DNA of 5,496 nucleotides. Origin: Elusimicrobiota bacterium (GTDB taxonomy: Bacteria > Elusimicrobiota > Elusimicrobia > UBA1565 > UBA9628). Below are positions 2 through 4,705 of this stretch, one piece after another. The notes beneath the pieces are model-generated. The model worked only from the letters and a program-made list of their open reading frames with translations. It ran no database searches and had not been told where the DNA came from. The translations under genes were made by a program, and so were the position numbers. Each line of letters starts with the position of its first letter. The stretch's first letter is position 1. The stretch spans positions 1-5,496 of the forward strand of contig JACQBB010000324.1 in the NCBI GenBank assembly GCA_016194625.1. The letters run 5' to 3'.

Positions 2-1840
2 CTGCTCGACACCGACGAGGTCTTCGAGGTCCCGTACATGGCCTCGAAGCTCTCCGTCTCGGCGGCCCCCACGCGCATCCTCGACGCCAAGGACCGCGTG
101 ATCGCGGAGTTCTCCGTCGAGAAGGGCCAGTACGTCCGCTCCGCCGACGACCTGCCCGCCTACCTCAAGAAGGCCATCGTCGCCAGCGAGGACGCGCACT
201 TCTACGACCACCACGGCATCGACTGGCGCGCGACGGCGCGCGCGGCCGCGGTCACGCTCCTGCGCGTGCGCCGCCAGCAGGGCGGCAGCACGCTGACCCA
301 GCAGCTGGCCAAGCAGATGTTCACGACGCGCAAGAAGACCCTGGGGCGCAAGATCTTCGAGTTCTTCTGCGCGCGCAAGCTCGAGGAGAAGTTCACCAAG
401 GACCAGATCCTGCTGATGTACTTCAACCTGGCCTACTTCGGCCACGGCTGCTTCGGCGTGGAGTCGGCGGCGCGCTACTACTTCGGCAAGCCCGCGTCCG
501 CGCTGGAGGTAGGCGAGGCCGCGATGCTCGTGGGCATCATCCCGAACCCGAACAAGTACTCGCCGCTCGATCGTCCCGAGCTGGCCAAGGCGCGCCTGCG
601 CACGGTGCTCAAGCGCATGGTCAAGAACGGCTTCGTGCCGGATTCGGCGCTCGACCGCATCGAGTCCGAGTTCTGGGCGTCGTTCGAGCGCCGCCTGAGG
701 ACGCGCGAGGTCTCGTTCTGGCGCACGCGCGTCAACGAGGCGCCCTACGTCGTCGAGTTCGTGCGCCGCCAGATGCTGAAGAGCGTCACCAAGGAGCGCC
801 TGCTCAAGGGCGGCCTGACGATCCGCACGACCTTCGACCTGGACGCGCAGAAGGGCGCGCAGGACGCGCTCGCCGAGCGCCTGGCCAAGGAGAACGACCC
901 CGACGCCGAGCCCGACGAGGACGGCGAGCCCGCCGGCAAGCGCGGTCCCGTCGAGGGGGCGCTCGTCGCCCTGCGCCCGGCCGACGGCGCCCTGCTCGCG
1001 CTGGTCGGCGGCTCCGGCTTTTCGTTCCAGAACCAGCTCGACCGCGCGATGGACGGCCGCCGCCTGATGGGCTCGTCGGTGAAGCCTTATGTGTATTCCG
1101 TCGCGTTCGAGAGCGGCAAGGCCGCCCCGGAGACGAAGTACCTGGACGCGCCGATCACCTTCCCGCTGCCCGGCGGCCGCAAGTGGTCGCCGCACAACTA
1201 CGGCAACAAGTACTTCGGCGAGGTGCGCCTGGACTTCGCGCTGTGGAAGTCGCTGAACTCGGTCGCGATCAAGCTGCTCAAGGACGTCGACATCGACGCG
1301 GTGCGCTCCGCCCTGTCGCTCGGGACCGGCGTCCCGCTGGACCGCTTCCCGCGCAACCTGTCGCTCGCGCTGGGCACCGCCGACCTGGCGCCGGTGCAGA
1401 TGGCCCAGGCCTTCGCCGTCTTCGCCAACGGCGGGCACGCGGTGCGCGCGTGGTGGCTGCGCGGCGTCGAGGACCGCGACGGCAAGACCATCATCCCCGG
1501 CCTGGAGCCCAAGGACCCCGGCCCCGTCGTGTTCAAGCCCGAGACGGTCAAGACGATGGTCACGGTCATGAAGGGCGTCCTCGGCCCCGAGGGCTCGGCC
1601 TACTCCTCGGCCCGCAAGACCGGCTTCAACATCCCCGCCGCCGGCAAGACCGGCACCACCAACGAGTACCGCGACGCCTGGTTCTCCGGCGTCACCCCCG
1701 ACCTGGCCGCCTCCGTCTGGCTCGGCCACGACGACGGCGTCCCCATGTCCCCCGGCAAAGCCGGCGGCGCCATCTCCGCCCCCGTCTGGATGCGTTTCGT
1801 GAAGTCCTACTACCTGTCCCGGCCGACGAAGGATTTTTGA
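2..1840 (+). CDS. Class A penicillin-binding protein (PBP1A-type, GT51 + transpeptidase), 5'-partial
   Basis: Bifunctional peptidoglycan synthase that polymerises lipid II glycan strands and cross-links stem peptides on the periplasmic face of the inner membrane. The frame is open to the left window edge, so the ATG at 38 is probably internal and the cytoplasmic tail and transmembrane anchor lie upstream. Numbering from that ATG: GT51 motif 1 is SEDAHFYDHHG with catalytic Glu51; motif 2 is QGGSTLTQQ (81-89); motif 3 is RKIFE with the expected second Glu at 108, and the 57-residue spacing equals E233/E290 of E. coli PBP1b. Motif 4 is YFGHGCFGVESAA (133-145). The transpeptidase has SSVK (nucleophile Ser346, Lys349), SLN (405-407) and KTGT (537-540). 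An acidic, Asp/Glu/Pro-rich linker (about 283-300) separates the two halves. The protein ends soon after the transpeptidase domain, and its TGA stop abuts the mobile element. Family equivalents are called mrcA/ponA; orthology to one of them is not proven. Confidence 0.96.
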   Translation: MLDTDEVFEVPYMASKLSVSAAPTRILDAKDRVIAEFSVEKGQYVRSADDLPAYLKKAIVASEDAHFYDHHGIDWRATARAAAVTLLRVRRQQGGSTLTQQLAKQMFTTRKKTLGRKIFEFFCARKLEEKFTKDQILLMYFNLAYFGHGCFGVESAARYYFGKPASALEVGEAAMLVGIIPNPNKYSPLDRPELAKARLRTVLKRMVKNGFVPDSALDRIESEFWASFERRLRTREVSFWRTRVNEAPYVVEFVRRQMLKSVTKERLLKGGLTIRTTFDLDAQKGAQDALAERLAKENDPDAEPDEDGEPAGKRGPVEGALVALRPADGALLALVGGSGFSFQNQLDRAMDGRRLMGSSVKPYVYSVAFESGKAAPETKYLDAPITFPLPGGRKWSPHNYGNKYFGEVRLDFALWKSLNSVAIKLLKDVDIDAVRSALSLGTGVPLDRFPRNLSLALGTADLAPVQMAQAFAVFANGGHAVRAWWLRGVEDRDGKTIIPGLEPKDPGPVVFKPETVKTMVTVMKGVLGPEGSAYSSARKTGFNIPAAGKTGTTNEYRDAWFSGVTPDLAASVWLGHDDGVPMSPGKAGGAISAPVWMRFVKSYYLSRPTKDF

Positions 1841-1866
1841 GGGTCAGGCCTTAACTTATTTGACTT
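1841..1866 (+). repeat. Left terminal inverted repeat of the element
   Basis: It begins GGGTCAGGCCTTAACTTA and pairs with 2705-2730 read on the opposite strand, 25 of 26 positions matching; the single difference is T at 1852 against A in the partner. Two further outward bases, GA at 1839-1840, also pair, and they are the last two bases of the PBP stop codon TGA. The transposase stop codon (TAA on the minus strand, 1858-1856) lies inside this repeat, so the last transposase codons and the element end are shared sequence. Confidence 0.9.
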
Positions 1867-2659
1867 GTTGCGTTAATGCGCGACTGACGATGGTCAGCGA
1901 AACTTTCAGATGCCGAGCGATATCGGTCGGTCGATGACCGAGTCTCGATGCCGATAGTGAAATCGCCCGCCGAACCTGACTGACGGGCCTTCGTCGGGAA
2001 CCCGACAGTACTTCGCCGGGTTCGATGCCATACCTTCCCGATACATTCCGGACGATTTCGTCCATTGAGGCTGACGGACGATCTTCGGTTCTCAGGAGAT
2101 CCGGCGGGATTTCTGCATCAAGGGACGGCCAGGGTTCGAAGTCTTGATTTGAGAGGCAAGACTCGGGCTCGACCGGCCAATGACCGCGCACGCTTTCCGG
2201 AAGGAGGCCGTTTTCGACTAGCCAGGGTTGAGGATTCAAACTCGACCAGGGCCAATCCGCCGCCGTGCTCCTCAGGCCGGCTCGTACGGGATTCTCATGG
2301 ATATATTTGACCAGGCGGGCCAGATACAATTCATCAGTGCACAGAAATGCTTTGTAACGCGCCTGGAAGAGATGTCCTTCCCGATCATGTCGGGCGTTGA
2401 AAGTTAGAGAGTACTTCGTGAGTATCCGGTGCATTATCCTGCTGAGCGGCGTGCTGGGAGTCCGGATCGCGAGGTGGAAATGGTTCCCCATCAAACAGTA
2501 AGCGAACAGTTGGAAGGGGAGCTGACGGTGGACTTCGGCTAAGACGCTCAGGAACAACAAGCGATCGTCATCATCGACGAAGACCTCGCGTCCGTCGACG
2601 CCGCGGGCCATCGCATGATAGGTCGCACCGGGATAATGTATTCTTGGGGGCCGAGGCAT
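1856..2659 (-). CDS. Y1/HUH transposase, IS200-like/RAYT class, with C-terminal helix-turn-helix
   Basis: 267-residue single-strand DNA transposase. The start is ATG at 2659 because the product then begins MPRPPRIHYPGATYH, the usual opening of this family; an upstream in-frame ATG at 2695 would add 12 unlike residues. The N-terminal Y1 domain (about 1-130) has MGNHFHLAI with the metal-binding HUH pair His60/His62, followed by GHLFQARYKAF and KYIHENPVRAGL. Tyr102 is the best candidate nucleophile, with Tyr119 as an alternative; an alignment is needed to decide. A second domain (about 200-267) has GRYGIEP, SRRRPVSQVRRAI and a helix-turn-helix at about 243-263 (RPTDIARHLKVSLTIVSRAL), resembling the C-terminal DNA-binding domain of DnaA. 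A modest AGGGA lies about 12 nt upstream of the start. The frame has no visible disruption, and the stop falls inside the left terminal repeat. It is transcribed against its neighbours. Confidence 0.93.
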   Translation of the reverse strand: MPRPPRIHYPGATYHAMARGVDGREVFVDDDDRLLFLSVLAEVHRQLPFQLFAYCLMGNHFHLAIRTPSTPLSRIMHRILTKYSLTFNARHDREGHLFQARYKAFLCTDELYLARLVKYIHENPVRAGLRSTAADWPWSSLNPQPWLVENGLLPESVRGHWPVEPESCLSNQDFEPWPSLDAEIPPDLLRTEDRPSASMDEIVRNVSGRYGIEPGEVLSGSRRRPVSQVRRAISLSASRLGHRPTDIARHLKVSLTIVSRALTQQVK

Positions 2660-2693
2660 GCTTTCATACGTTTTCCCTAGGCAAATTGTTCCC

Positions 2694-2747
2694 ATGCGCC
2701 GAATAAGTCAAATAAGTTTAGGCCTGACCCTCCTCATAATCGCATGC
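2694..2747 (+). other. Lipoprotein signal peptide and lipobox, largely element-encoded
   Basis: Codons 1-18 of the PPC lipoprotein: Met-Arg-Arg n-region, hydrophobic core ISLGLTLLII, and Ala-Cys at the cleavage site (Cys codon 2745-2747). The inverted repeat ends at 2730, so only the last few residues (LLIIAC) are encoded by DNA outside the element. The chimeric nature is read directly from the coordinates; that it works for export is inferred from its composition. Confidence 0.75.
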
Positions 2748-4205
2748 GGCCCCACTCGGGAAGTGGAGCCGAACTACAGCTATCAGCAGGCGACGGCGCT
2801 CAAGCCGGGGGCGACGGGCGTGGGGACGATGAAGAACGCCAAGGAGCCGCATTGGTGGCGGATCGACGCGACGGCGGAGGGCGTGCTGTCGGCGTACGAT
2901 AAGGACCGGCGCGAGCTGATCCGCGTCGACGAGACGACGACGGGCGGGGACGAGCAGATGCCCTCGCTGGGCGTCTCGCCCGGGGTGTACTACCTGACGG
3001 TCGCCAACAAGAACCCGACGGCCAACAACCCGACGCAGGAGTACAAGCTCGTCACCAAGTTCGACGCCGCCAAGGGCCGCGAGCGCCAGCCGGACTACTC
3101 GTCGCTGAGCGCGCAGCCGCTGGAGGCGGGCGGCACGGTGCGCGGATGGTACTGGCCGACGCGCAACCTCCTCATCGACGACCCCGCGGCGCAGGGCGTC
3201 GACCACTGGTTCTCCGTGGACGTGCAGAAGCAGGGGCTGTTCCTGCTGAACGTGGACGTGTCCGAGGTCCCCAAGGTGGACCCGATCCTCGAGGTGTACG
3301 ACACGAACGCGTACAAGCTGACCTCGGTGGACCAGGGCGGCGTCGGCGAGGGGGAGAGCCTGCGCAGCTTCGGCGTGCGCGGCCCGGCGAAGTACTTCCT
3401 GCGCCTGCGCTCGAAGTACGACAACGCCGGCAACCCCGACGCGCCGTTCGACCTGATGACGGAGCTGCTCCCGTACCAGGGGCGCACCGAGTTCGAGCCG
3501 AACAACCAGCGCGCCGACGCGACCCCGTTCGAGCTGGACTCGATCCAGGGGACGATCTCGCCGGCCGGCGACTCGGACTGGTACAAGGTCTCCGTCGGCA
3601 CCGATTCCAAGTTCATCCTGCGCGCCGACGTGACCGGCGTGCCGGGCATGGAGCTGACGCTGGCGCTCAAGGACTCGTTCGGCAACGACCTGGCCGCCGT
3701 GGACAACGCGGGCAAGGAGGCTCCGCAGGTGCTCACCGGCTGGGGCGCGACCAAGGGCGACTATTATCTCGTCGTGGCCGAGAAGACCGGCAAGAAGGCC
3801 GACGCGCGCAGCCCGTACACGCTGAGCAGGAAGCTGATCCCGTGGCAGGCGGGCCTGGAGTGGGAGCCTAACGACTCGACGGCGACCGTCCAGGGCCTCA
3901 AGGTCGGCGACTCGGTGGACGGCTACTTCGCCCCGAAGGGCGACCAGGACTGGTACGAGTTCAACGTGTACCAGAAGGGCGTCTACGAGCTGGAGCTGAC
4001 CGGCGTCATCAACGCCGCCCCGACGGTCACGCTCTTCGACCAGGAATACAAGGAGCTCGCCTCCGCCGCGGCCGCCAAGCCCGGAGAGCCCGTGGTCCTG
4101 TCGCGCGAGCTGGATCGCGGCACCTACGACGTGCGCCTGCGGCCGTCCGACCCCGCGCAGAACAACGTGCGCGACAAGTACTCGTTCCGGGTGAGGGTCA
4201 AGTGA
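2694..4205 (+). CDS. Lipoprotein with four tandem PPC-like beta-sandwich domains
   Basis: 503-residue predicted lipoprotein. The start at 2694 gives a compact signal peptide, MRRISQISLGLTLLIIA, followed by Cys18 (lipobox IIAC). An ATG at 2658 would add 12 residues (MLSYVFPRQIVP) and is possible. Residue +2 is Gly, so an E. coli-type Lol rule would send it to the outer membrane. The mature part reads as four repeats starting at about residues 25 (EPNYS), 132 (QPDYS), 268 (EPNNQ) and 391 (EPNDS). Each has a central D-x-D-W or HW element (HWWRID, DHWFSV, SDWYKV, QDWYEF) and a late G-x-Y strand (GVYYLTV, KYFLRL, GDYYLVV, GTYDVRL), the pattern of bacterial pre-peptidase C-terminal (PPC) domains. 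Repeats 3 and 4 are closest to the consensus. No protease or other catalytic domain is present, so a binding or structural role is inferred. The first 12-13 codons come from the mobile element. No strong ribosome binding site precedes 2694. Confidence 0.9.
   Translation: MRRISQISLGLTLLIIACGPTREVEPNYSYQQATALKPGATGVGTMKNAKEPHWWRIDATAEGVLSAYDKDRRELIRVDETTTGGDEQMPSLGVSPGVYYLTVANKNPTANNPTQEYKLVTKFDAAKGRERQPDYSSLSAQPLEAGGTVRGWYWPTRNLLIDDPAAQGVDHWFSVDVQKQGLFLLNVDVSEVPKVDPILEVYDTNAYKLTSVDQGGVGEGESLRSFGVRGPAKYFLRLRSKYDNAGNPDAPFDLMTELLPYQGRTEFEPNNQRADATPFELDSIQGTISPAGDSDWYKVSVGTDSKFILRADVTGVPGMELTLALKDSFGNDLAAVDNAGKEAPQVLTGWGATKGDYYLVVAEKTGKKADARSPYTLSRKLIPWQAGLEWEPNDSTATVQGLKVGDSVDGYFAPKGDQDWYEFNVYQKGVYELELTGVINAAPTVTLFDQEYKELASAAAAKPGEPVVLSRELDRGTYDVRLRPSDPAQNNVRDKYSFRVRVK
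2705..2730 (-). repeat. Right terminal inverted repeat of the element
   Basis: Read on the minus strand it begins GGGTCAGGCCTAAACTTA, matching the left end with one mismatch. On the plus strand it lies in frame within the lipoprotein gene and encodes roughly residues 4-13 of its signal peptide (ISQISLGLTL). It uses ATA, AGT, CAA and TTA codons that are unusual beside the G/C-ending codons of the rest of that gene. A short direct repeat, AATAAGT, occurs twice here (2702-2708 and 2711-2717). Confidence 0.9.
4192..4205 (+). promoter_or_regulatory. Ribosome binding site and GTGA stop/start overlap
   Basis: GAGGG near 4193-4197 lies about 5 nt before the GTG start at 4202. The start codon shares bases with the TGA stop of the upstream lipoprotein gene (4203-4205). 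The close Shine-Dalgarno and the 4-nt overlap support the GTG start and suggest termination-reinitiation coupling between the two lipoproteins. Confidence 0.75.
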
Positions 4206-4705
4206 GGCCGGCCTCGCTGGCGCTGGCGTCCGCGCTGGCGTTCGCGGCTTGCGCGCCCGGCCGCGGCGCGGCTCCCGCCGGCCCCGCGCAGGCGGGAGAG
4301 TCCGTCGAGGCCCCCAAGCGCCCGCGCTTCGAGGAGCCGCCCGAGGTCAAGGACCCGAACTTCATCCTGGTGGTGTCGGAGACGGTCCCCAACCCCGACG
4401 ACGACGGGATCTCCTACACGAAGGTGTTCGTCGACGGCAAGGAGGCCGGCAAGACCGGCGTCGGCCGCAAGGCCGACGAGCGCACGCTCAAGCTGAAGCT
4501 TCCCATCGGCAACCAGCCGGTGCGCCTGGAGCATTGGGTCCTGCCGGGCGTCGGCGAGTGGACCCGCCTGGACGACGCGCTGCAGCCGCGCGAGCGCTTC
4601 GTCCGCGTCGAGGAAGGCACCGTCGCCCGCCTCGAGCTGCGCTTCGCCGAGGGCGAGGCGTCCAACACCCTCACGCTGAGCCGCGTCCCCGCGCCCGCGC
4701 CTTAG
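4202..4705 (+). CDS. Small lipoprotein of unknown function, translationally coupled
   Basis: 167 residues from a GTG start at 4202 that overlaps the upstream TGA stop (GTGA), with a GAGGG ribosome binding site in the last codons of the preceding gene about 5 nt ahead. This arrangement implies translational coupling and a shared role with the PPC lipoprotein. The signal peptide MRPASLALASALAFAA leads to lipobox FAAC with Cys17; the next residue is Ala, compatible with the outer membrane. A low-complexity Ala/Gly/Pro linker (about 18-35) tethers a beta-rich domain (about 50-160) that opens NFILVVSETVPNPDDDG. It includes VFVDGKEAGKT (75-85), faintly reminiscent of PEGA-type surface domains, then LEHWVLPG and RERFVRVEEGTVARLELRF. 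I do not recognise the family and assign no function. The stop TAG overlaps the convergent gene's stop. Confidence 0.88.
   Translation: MRPASLALASALAFAACAPGRGAAPAGPAQAGESVEAPKRPRFEEPPEVKDPNFILVVSETVPNPDDDGISYTKVFVDGKEAGKTGVGRKADERTLKLKLPIGNQPVRLEHWVLPGVGEWTRLDDALQPRERFVRVEEGTVARLELRFAEGEASNTLTLSRVPAPAP

Follow-up and report, generated by a model that had tools for sequence, protein, structure and literature searches.

The window, which is the whole 5,496-nt stretch of DNA analyzed here, carries a RAYT (REP-associated tyrosine transposase) gene lying antisense between the 3′ part of a PBP1A gene and the gene of a PPC-domain lipoprotein, hereafter LIP. The features are given below with their positions in the window.

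2..1840, forward strand: PBP1A gene, 3′ part, with Pfam Transgly and Transpeptidase domains; its TGA stop adjoins the left repeat.
1841..2730, reverse strand: RAYT element from terminus to terminus, bounded by inverted repeats whose positions relative to the RAYT start match those in other copies.
1856..2659, reverse strand: RAYT gene, 267 aa from the ATG at 2659 or 279 aa from the upstream ATG at 2695.
1839..1869, no strand assigned: left terminal REP, which also carries the last codons and the stop of RAYT.
2694..2696, forward strand: probable LIP start codon ATG, inside the element and the last in-frame start ahead of the cysteine.
2702..2732, forward strand: right terminal REP, in the LIP frame, encoding the putative signal-peptide core.
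2745..2747, forward strand: lipobox cysteine codon TGC, within IIAC.
2694..4205, forward strand: LIP, the PPC-domain lipoprotein gene (Pfam PPC, 1.8e-09), with 183 homologues.

The PBP1A gene, whose stop codon ends at 1840, scored 499 bits against TIGR02074, slightly below the cut-off of 508.75. The RAYT of the window was recognized by Pfam Y1_Tnp (1.3e-13) and by NCBIfam REP_Tyr_transpos (82 bits, cut-off 80), and it gave a weak match to TnpArep 4er8 (E 0.0097). Residues 212-273 of the protein read from 2695 to 1856 on the reverse strand match the DnaA helix-turn-helix weakly (E 0.00024, under the Pfam cut-off), and this C-terminal part is perhaps a DNA-binding tail. The gene 3′ of LIP (4202-4705, GTG start) has no Pfam match and a likewise lipoprotein-like N-terminus (LAFAAC). 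Rfam returned no match in the window at gathering thresholds.

The inverted repeats flanking RAYT (1839-1869 and 2702-2732) are 31 nt long and 94% complementary, and the right one, translated in the LIP frame, reads ISQISLGLTL. Only two in-frame ATG/GTG/TTG codons precede the lipobox cysteine, at 2658 and 2694, both of them within the element, and none lies between the right repeat and the cysteine. A bacterial lipoprotein signal combines a basic n-region, a hydrophobic core, and a lipobox cysteine (a PS51257-like rule); in the window, the whole pattern is present when reading from 2694 and only part of it from 2658. The same pattern was found at 11 of 13 loci, the exceptions being L002, without K or R in its first seven residues, and L006, which departs from it. 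Start positions matching 2694 lie 35-56 nt upstream of the core end in the relatives. From these features, we infer that LIP translation starts inside the element and that the protein is lipidated at the cysteine, with the right repeat and the ATG at 2694 encoding the start, the n-region, and much of the hydrophobic core. The original prediction that an element end supplies the LIP start codon and signal-peptide core is borne out by the in-frame right arm and by the position of both candidate starts, and its reasoning on excision was reproduced by eye: once the element is precisely removed, the sole start left is a TTG a few codons ahead of the cysteine, and no n-region remains. At the other terminus, the window RAYT ends in QVK, the same residues that, followed by a stop, result from reading the left arm outward. 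By eye, at least 8 of 12 loci have the tail codons of RAYT in the left REP, and the last codons, often with the stop, were noted in it in the window (1839-1869), L001-L004, L007, L009, and L106, so that both ends of the element appear to be coding.

To place the window among its relatives, 29 Elusimicrobiota loci with LIP (L001-L029) were compared and L106, from genome G205, was added, the named relatives being metagenome-assembled genomes. RAYT lies antisense to and directly upstream of LIP at all 12 closest loci (L001-L012), which together with L106 and the window gives 14 loci, and it was not found upstream of LIP at any of the 17 more distant loci, of which L013 has only 192 nt upstream of the LIP match. 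The same arrangement at 13 further loci, with RAYTs 36-49% identical to that of the window, indicates that the fusion goes beyond chance. Because the window arm core, used as a query in L001-L029, gave a single weaker match, in L006, arms were located by pairing within each locus; they were found in the window and 12 further loci, while the contig of L010 ends inside the RAYT gene. The left repeat starts right at the stop codon of PBP in the window, L006, L007, and L011; the distance is at most about 10 nt in L001 and L002, 28 nt in L008, and 2 kb in L012. Across the RAYT-bearing loci, between 5 and about 29 nt separate the end of the right repeat from the cysteine. Outgroup loci without the element have ordinary signal peptides at the same cysteine, and the PBP stop lies 58-100 nt from it at 12 of 13 measurable loci (the exception, L026, has 449 nt). 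The element would then have replaced the original LIP start, n-region, and part of the core in most cases, in keeping with the earlier proposal that the ancestral 5′ end was lost or rebuilt.

The reading frame of the right repeat is conserved across these loci. In 12 of 13 loci, the repeat core lies 16, 19, 22, 28, or 31 nt from the cysteine, distances that all leave the same remainder on division by 3; the remaining one, L011, has 30 nt and a broken frame, and since frameshifts also affect its PBP and RAYT, a sequencing error is likely. With L011 left out, all 13 loci examined have an open LIP frame that includes a start within the element; for the other two frames, this is so in 3 of 26 cases. 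When the arms are read in the LIP frame, a stop is met in 2 of 12 left arms (window and L007) and in 0 of 12 right arms, counts that are too few to prove selection on their own. Of 35 REPs fetched from genome G007, 27 would interrupt the LIP frame with a stop, and the right arm at its LIP locus belongs to a stop-free subclass comprising 4 of the 35. Taken together, the frame and stop data fit selection for coding. Hydropathy in the LIP frame was higher in right than in left arms by a mean of 0.45 over 8 loci, which was not significant (32 of 256 sign flips), and the left arm is no neutral control here because it encodes the RAYT tail.

The wider distribution of the REP-encoded core was examined in the 183 LIP homologues, of which those named by organism among the 120 matches listed are Elusimicrobiota. 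Using our own pattern for a REP-type core, [GSCA]LT[LPFWV] before the cysteine, the 120 listed homologues were divided into 46 with a REP-type core, 47 lacking one, 18 with a late start (at most 14 residues up to the cysteine and no REP-type core), and 9 without the cysteine; an N-terminal extension with a stretch reading as the antisense of the RAYT start occurs in 9 of the 120. In a LIP tree of 148 rows, a single clade of 117 rows (SH-aLRT 99) takes in all 46 REP-type rows, leaving none among the 31 rows outside. Within that clade, 27 rows with other signal peptides and 5 that carry the antisense extension but no REP-type core depart from the REP pattern, which argues against a simple picture. 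Two nested groups of such rows, one with P0089, P0093-P0097, P0101-P0103, and P0106 and the other with P0032, P0033, and P0060, look like secondary returns to ordinary signal peptides. The ordinary signal peptides within the clade suggest that any tie between RAYT and host would be breakable. At least seven apparent contig matches between the LIP and RAYT lists were seen by eye, as expected if both genes share contigs.

The trees point to a single gain. The 14 RAYT-bearing loci form one clade of the LIP tree (100/100) and require one change, and in a RAYT tree of the 13 LIP-locus copies (L011 left out), the main clades agree with those of LIP. The window RAYT, unlike its LIP, does not group with L001 and L007, although this grouping could not be rejected (p-AU 0.107). 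L002 stands out by its different REP core and the length of its RAYT branch. The 23 close RAYT copies found elsewhere in these genomes make up a single separate clade (97/95), and the number of RAYT matches per genome is 1-2 in 7 of 12 genomes and 6-11 in 5 of 12. A REPIN-RAYT system is expected to have a vertically inherited RAYT in single copy. The LIP-locus copy looks vertically inherited, and its codons look constrained (dN/dS 0.17-0.29 in 8 pairs, with dS of 0.9-1.6 near saturation). The off-locus clade (L037, L039, L042-L047, L050, L051, L057, L059-L063, L094, L096-L099, L101, and L102) nests beside the LIP-locus copies when rooted on distant paralogues, an uncertain rooting, as if a mobile RAYT lineage had arisen from the resident one. 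A second, distant RAYT-like protein, 28-35% identical to that of the window, is present in 8 of 12 relatives (L052-L056 and L103-L105) and varies far less among them than the LIP-locus RAYT does.

REPs were also searched for away from the LIP locus, each genome being scanned with patterns built on its own arms or those of its close group, allowing up to three mismatches. This search gave 4-36 matches per genome in 11 relatives, often including the LIP-locus arms, and reversed patterns gave none in the same 11; G008, searched with the motifs of other genomes only, had no match, and G011 was left out. An inverted REP pair is present at 45 of 60 fetched sites, and 42 of these pairs are 52-71 nt long. 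In G205, the peptide of the LIP arm, FNEFASL, is encoded by 12 of 21 fetched REPs. We take an HUH motif and a catalytic tyrosine motif to be RAYT hallmarks; in the window, they read NHFH and YIHENPV. NHFH is present in 13 of the 14 LIP-locus RAYTs (missing in the frameshifted L011), and the tyrosine motif is present in all 14. A RAYT, its flanking REPs, and dispersed inverted REP pairs together make up a REPIN-RAYT system, so the element appears to be an ancient, vertically kept one whose right REP doubles as a signal peptide. IS200/IS605 insertion sequences, which lack long terminal inverted repeats and have a short TnpA, share the Y1 transposase domain with the element; this class was ruled out by the 31-nt terminal repeats and the 267-aa protein of the RAYT model.

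It had further been proposed that every copy of the element carries a ready-made ATG and hydrophobic stretch and could serve as a portable signal-peptide donor. An open frame with a start at this place is indeed present in 17 of 20 other RAYT copies in which the core was found (in 4 more copies no core was found), but the donor role is not supported, given the stops that 27 of the 35 G007 REPs would introduce and the lack of a clear second in-frame fusion at 108 REP sites in 60 loci, a screen by eye in which only sites with a coding-like outward frame of at least 40 aa were judged. The outcome of this screen also speaks against a Rickettsia palindromic element, which would lie in frame in many genes.

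The two arms of a locus resemble each other far more than they resemble the arms of other loci (87% versus 59% similarity over 25 nt), and none of 10,000 random arm pairings reached the observed similarity. Beyond the LIP locus, 10 REPIN sites with the same flanking genes in G007 and G001 were compared (L111/L142, L112/L146, L113/L133, L118/L129, L119/L138, L121/L130, L122/L135, L124/L141, L126/L131, and L128/L136). Similarity of the variable part of the REPIN was 53% at orthologous sites, 50% at non-orthologous sites, and 61-63% between sites of one genome. REP sites can thus have great age even as their sequence turns over in each genome separately, a pattern that would amount to concerted evolution and that would carry the LIP signal peptide along. 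A REPIN site beside a HAD-like gene is common to G007, G205, and G010 (L114, L158, and L166). Clade-inherited antiquity, the REPIN-RAYT nature with its dispersed REPs, and the concerted change of the arms were all missed by the original prediction.

We consider it highly probable, from comparative sequence evidence, that a RAYT element with its flanking REPs inserted once into the short PBP1A-LIP gap, in the ancestor of this Elusimicrobiota clade, replacing the LIP start codon, n-region, and part of the hydrophobic core, and was then inherited vertically. The right REP would have stayed in the LIP frame, its sequence shifting in parallel with those of the left REP and of the REPs dispersed elsewhere in that genome. 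Ribosomes would start at an ATG, GTG, or TTG inside the element, whose leader would supply the basic n-region and whose REP the hydrophobic core. Once the protein is exported, the cysteine would be lipidated and signal peptidase II would remove the REP-encoded piece before it. Since that piece is discarded, mainly hydrophobicity, length, and frame would matter, and a drifting REP would be tolerated.

It could be argued instead that the site is a hotspot in which RAYTs were inserted before LIP repeatedly and independently, the shared layout reflecting convergence. The strong divergence of arms between loci (0.59), the different core and long RAYT branch of L002, and the 6-11 RAYT matches in 5 of 12 genomes, which indicate that movement occurs, would be consistent with such a history. 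However, the LIP-locus RAYTs are not scattered among the 23 off-locus copies (one clade, 97/95), the main RAYT clades agree with LIP, a single change suffices on the LIP tree, and the orientation is common to all 14 loci and the frame to 12 of 13, which renders repeated insertion improbable. A recent insertion unique to the window's lineage, as its 94% identical arms would suggest in isolation, was rejected and carries practically no weight, given the same layout at 13 other loci with RAYTs only 36-49% identical to the window's and the one change on the LIP tree; the likeness of arms within a locus comes from concerted change.

The repeat might also not be translated as an export signal, with LIP starting downstream or remaining cytosolic, and database gene calls are indeed often late (18 of the 120 listed homologues). 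Yet the window offers no start codon between the repeat and the cysteine, the frame is kept by indels in multiples of three, and the outgroups have ordinary lipoprotein signals at the same cysteine, making this reading very unlikely.

A more tentative idea, for which we see less than even chances, is that the captured REP locks RAYT in place. Loss or precise excision of the element would remove the LIP start and export signal, the host's need for this conserved envelope lipoprotein would sustain the REPIN-RAYT system, and REP drift would dictate signal-peptide evolution. The persistence of RAYTs and REPINs is an open question, and the locus provides a concrete, testable tie to a host gene. PMC8049555, in the parts considered here, models REPIN persistence and argues that populations of too little benefit get purged.

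In the portions of PMC3116915 and PMC8049555 that describe REPIN-RAYT systems, the REP-flanked RAYT, the dispersed inverted REP pairs, and the long-kept RAYT locus resemble what is seen here; unlike in those portions, the flanking REP here codes for the lipoprotein start region and signal peptide, and RAYT is present in many copies in some of the genomes. IS605 stem loops at Borrelia lipoprotein genes (PMC2775950, in part) are similar in that ends of Y1-transposase elements became fixed beside lipoprotein genes, but they lie at the 3′ ends of those genes, as RNA stem loops and without the transposase, whereas here the element end lies at the 5′ end of the gene, is translated, and is accompanied by the transposase. 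Rickettsia palindromic elements (PMC10969869, in part) are likewise small palindromic mobile elements lying in frame in genes; those are scattered into many genes, whereas a single terminus of a resident element was captured here, and it encodes a part expected to be cut off. Neither precedent, in the sections drawn upon (PMC2775950 and PMC10969869), mentions an N-terminal export signal retained alongside its own transposase, and the best literature matches included no description of a signal peptide formed by a REP or IS end, most subscription journals lying outside that scope. The terminal REP would be a putative transposase substrate and host-gene codons at once, an example of how the end of a mobile element can become part of a coding sequence at a point where the encoded piece is cleaved off and lost, and the 14 loci allow transposase, REP, and signal peptide to be followed jointly.

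A further observation concerns gene order around the element. At six loci (L003, L004, L005, L009, L010, and L106), the PBP gene is inverted and lies on the other side of RAYT-LIP, and a third REP is present (L003, 7986-8011; L004, 8004-8029; L005, 7991-8016; L009, to 5990; L010, to 2676; L106, to 5674). This REP lies within about 35 nt of the PBP end at the five loci with known PBP coordinates and in the matching place in L106, which suggests rearrangement through REPs.
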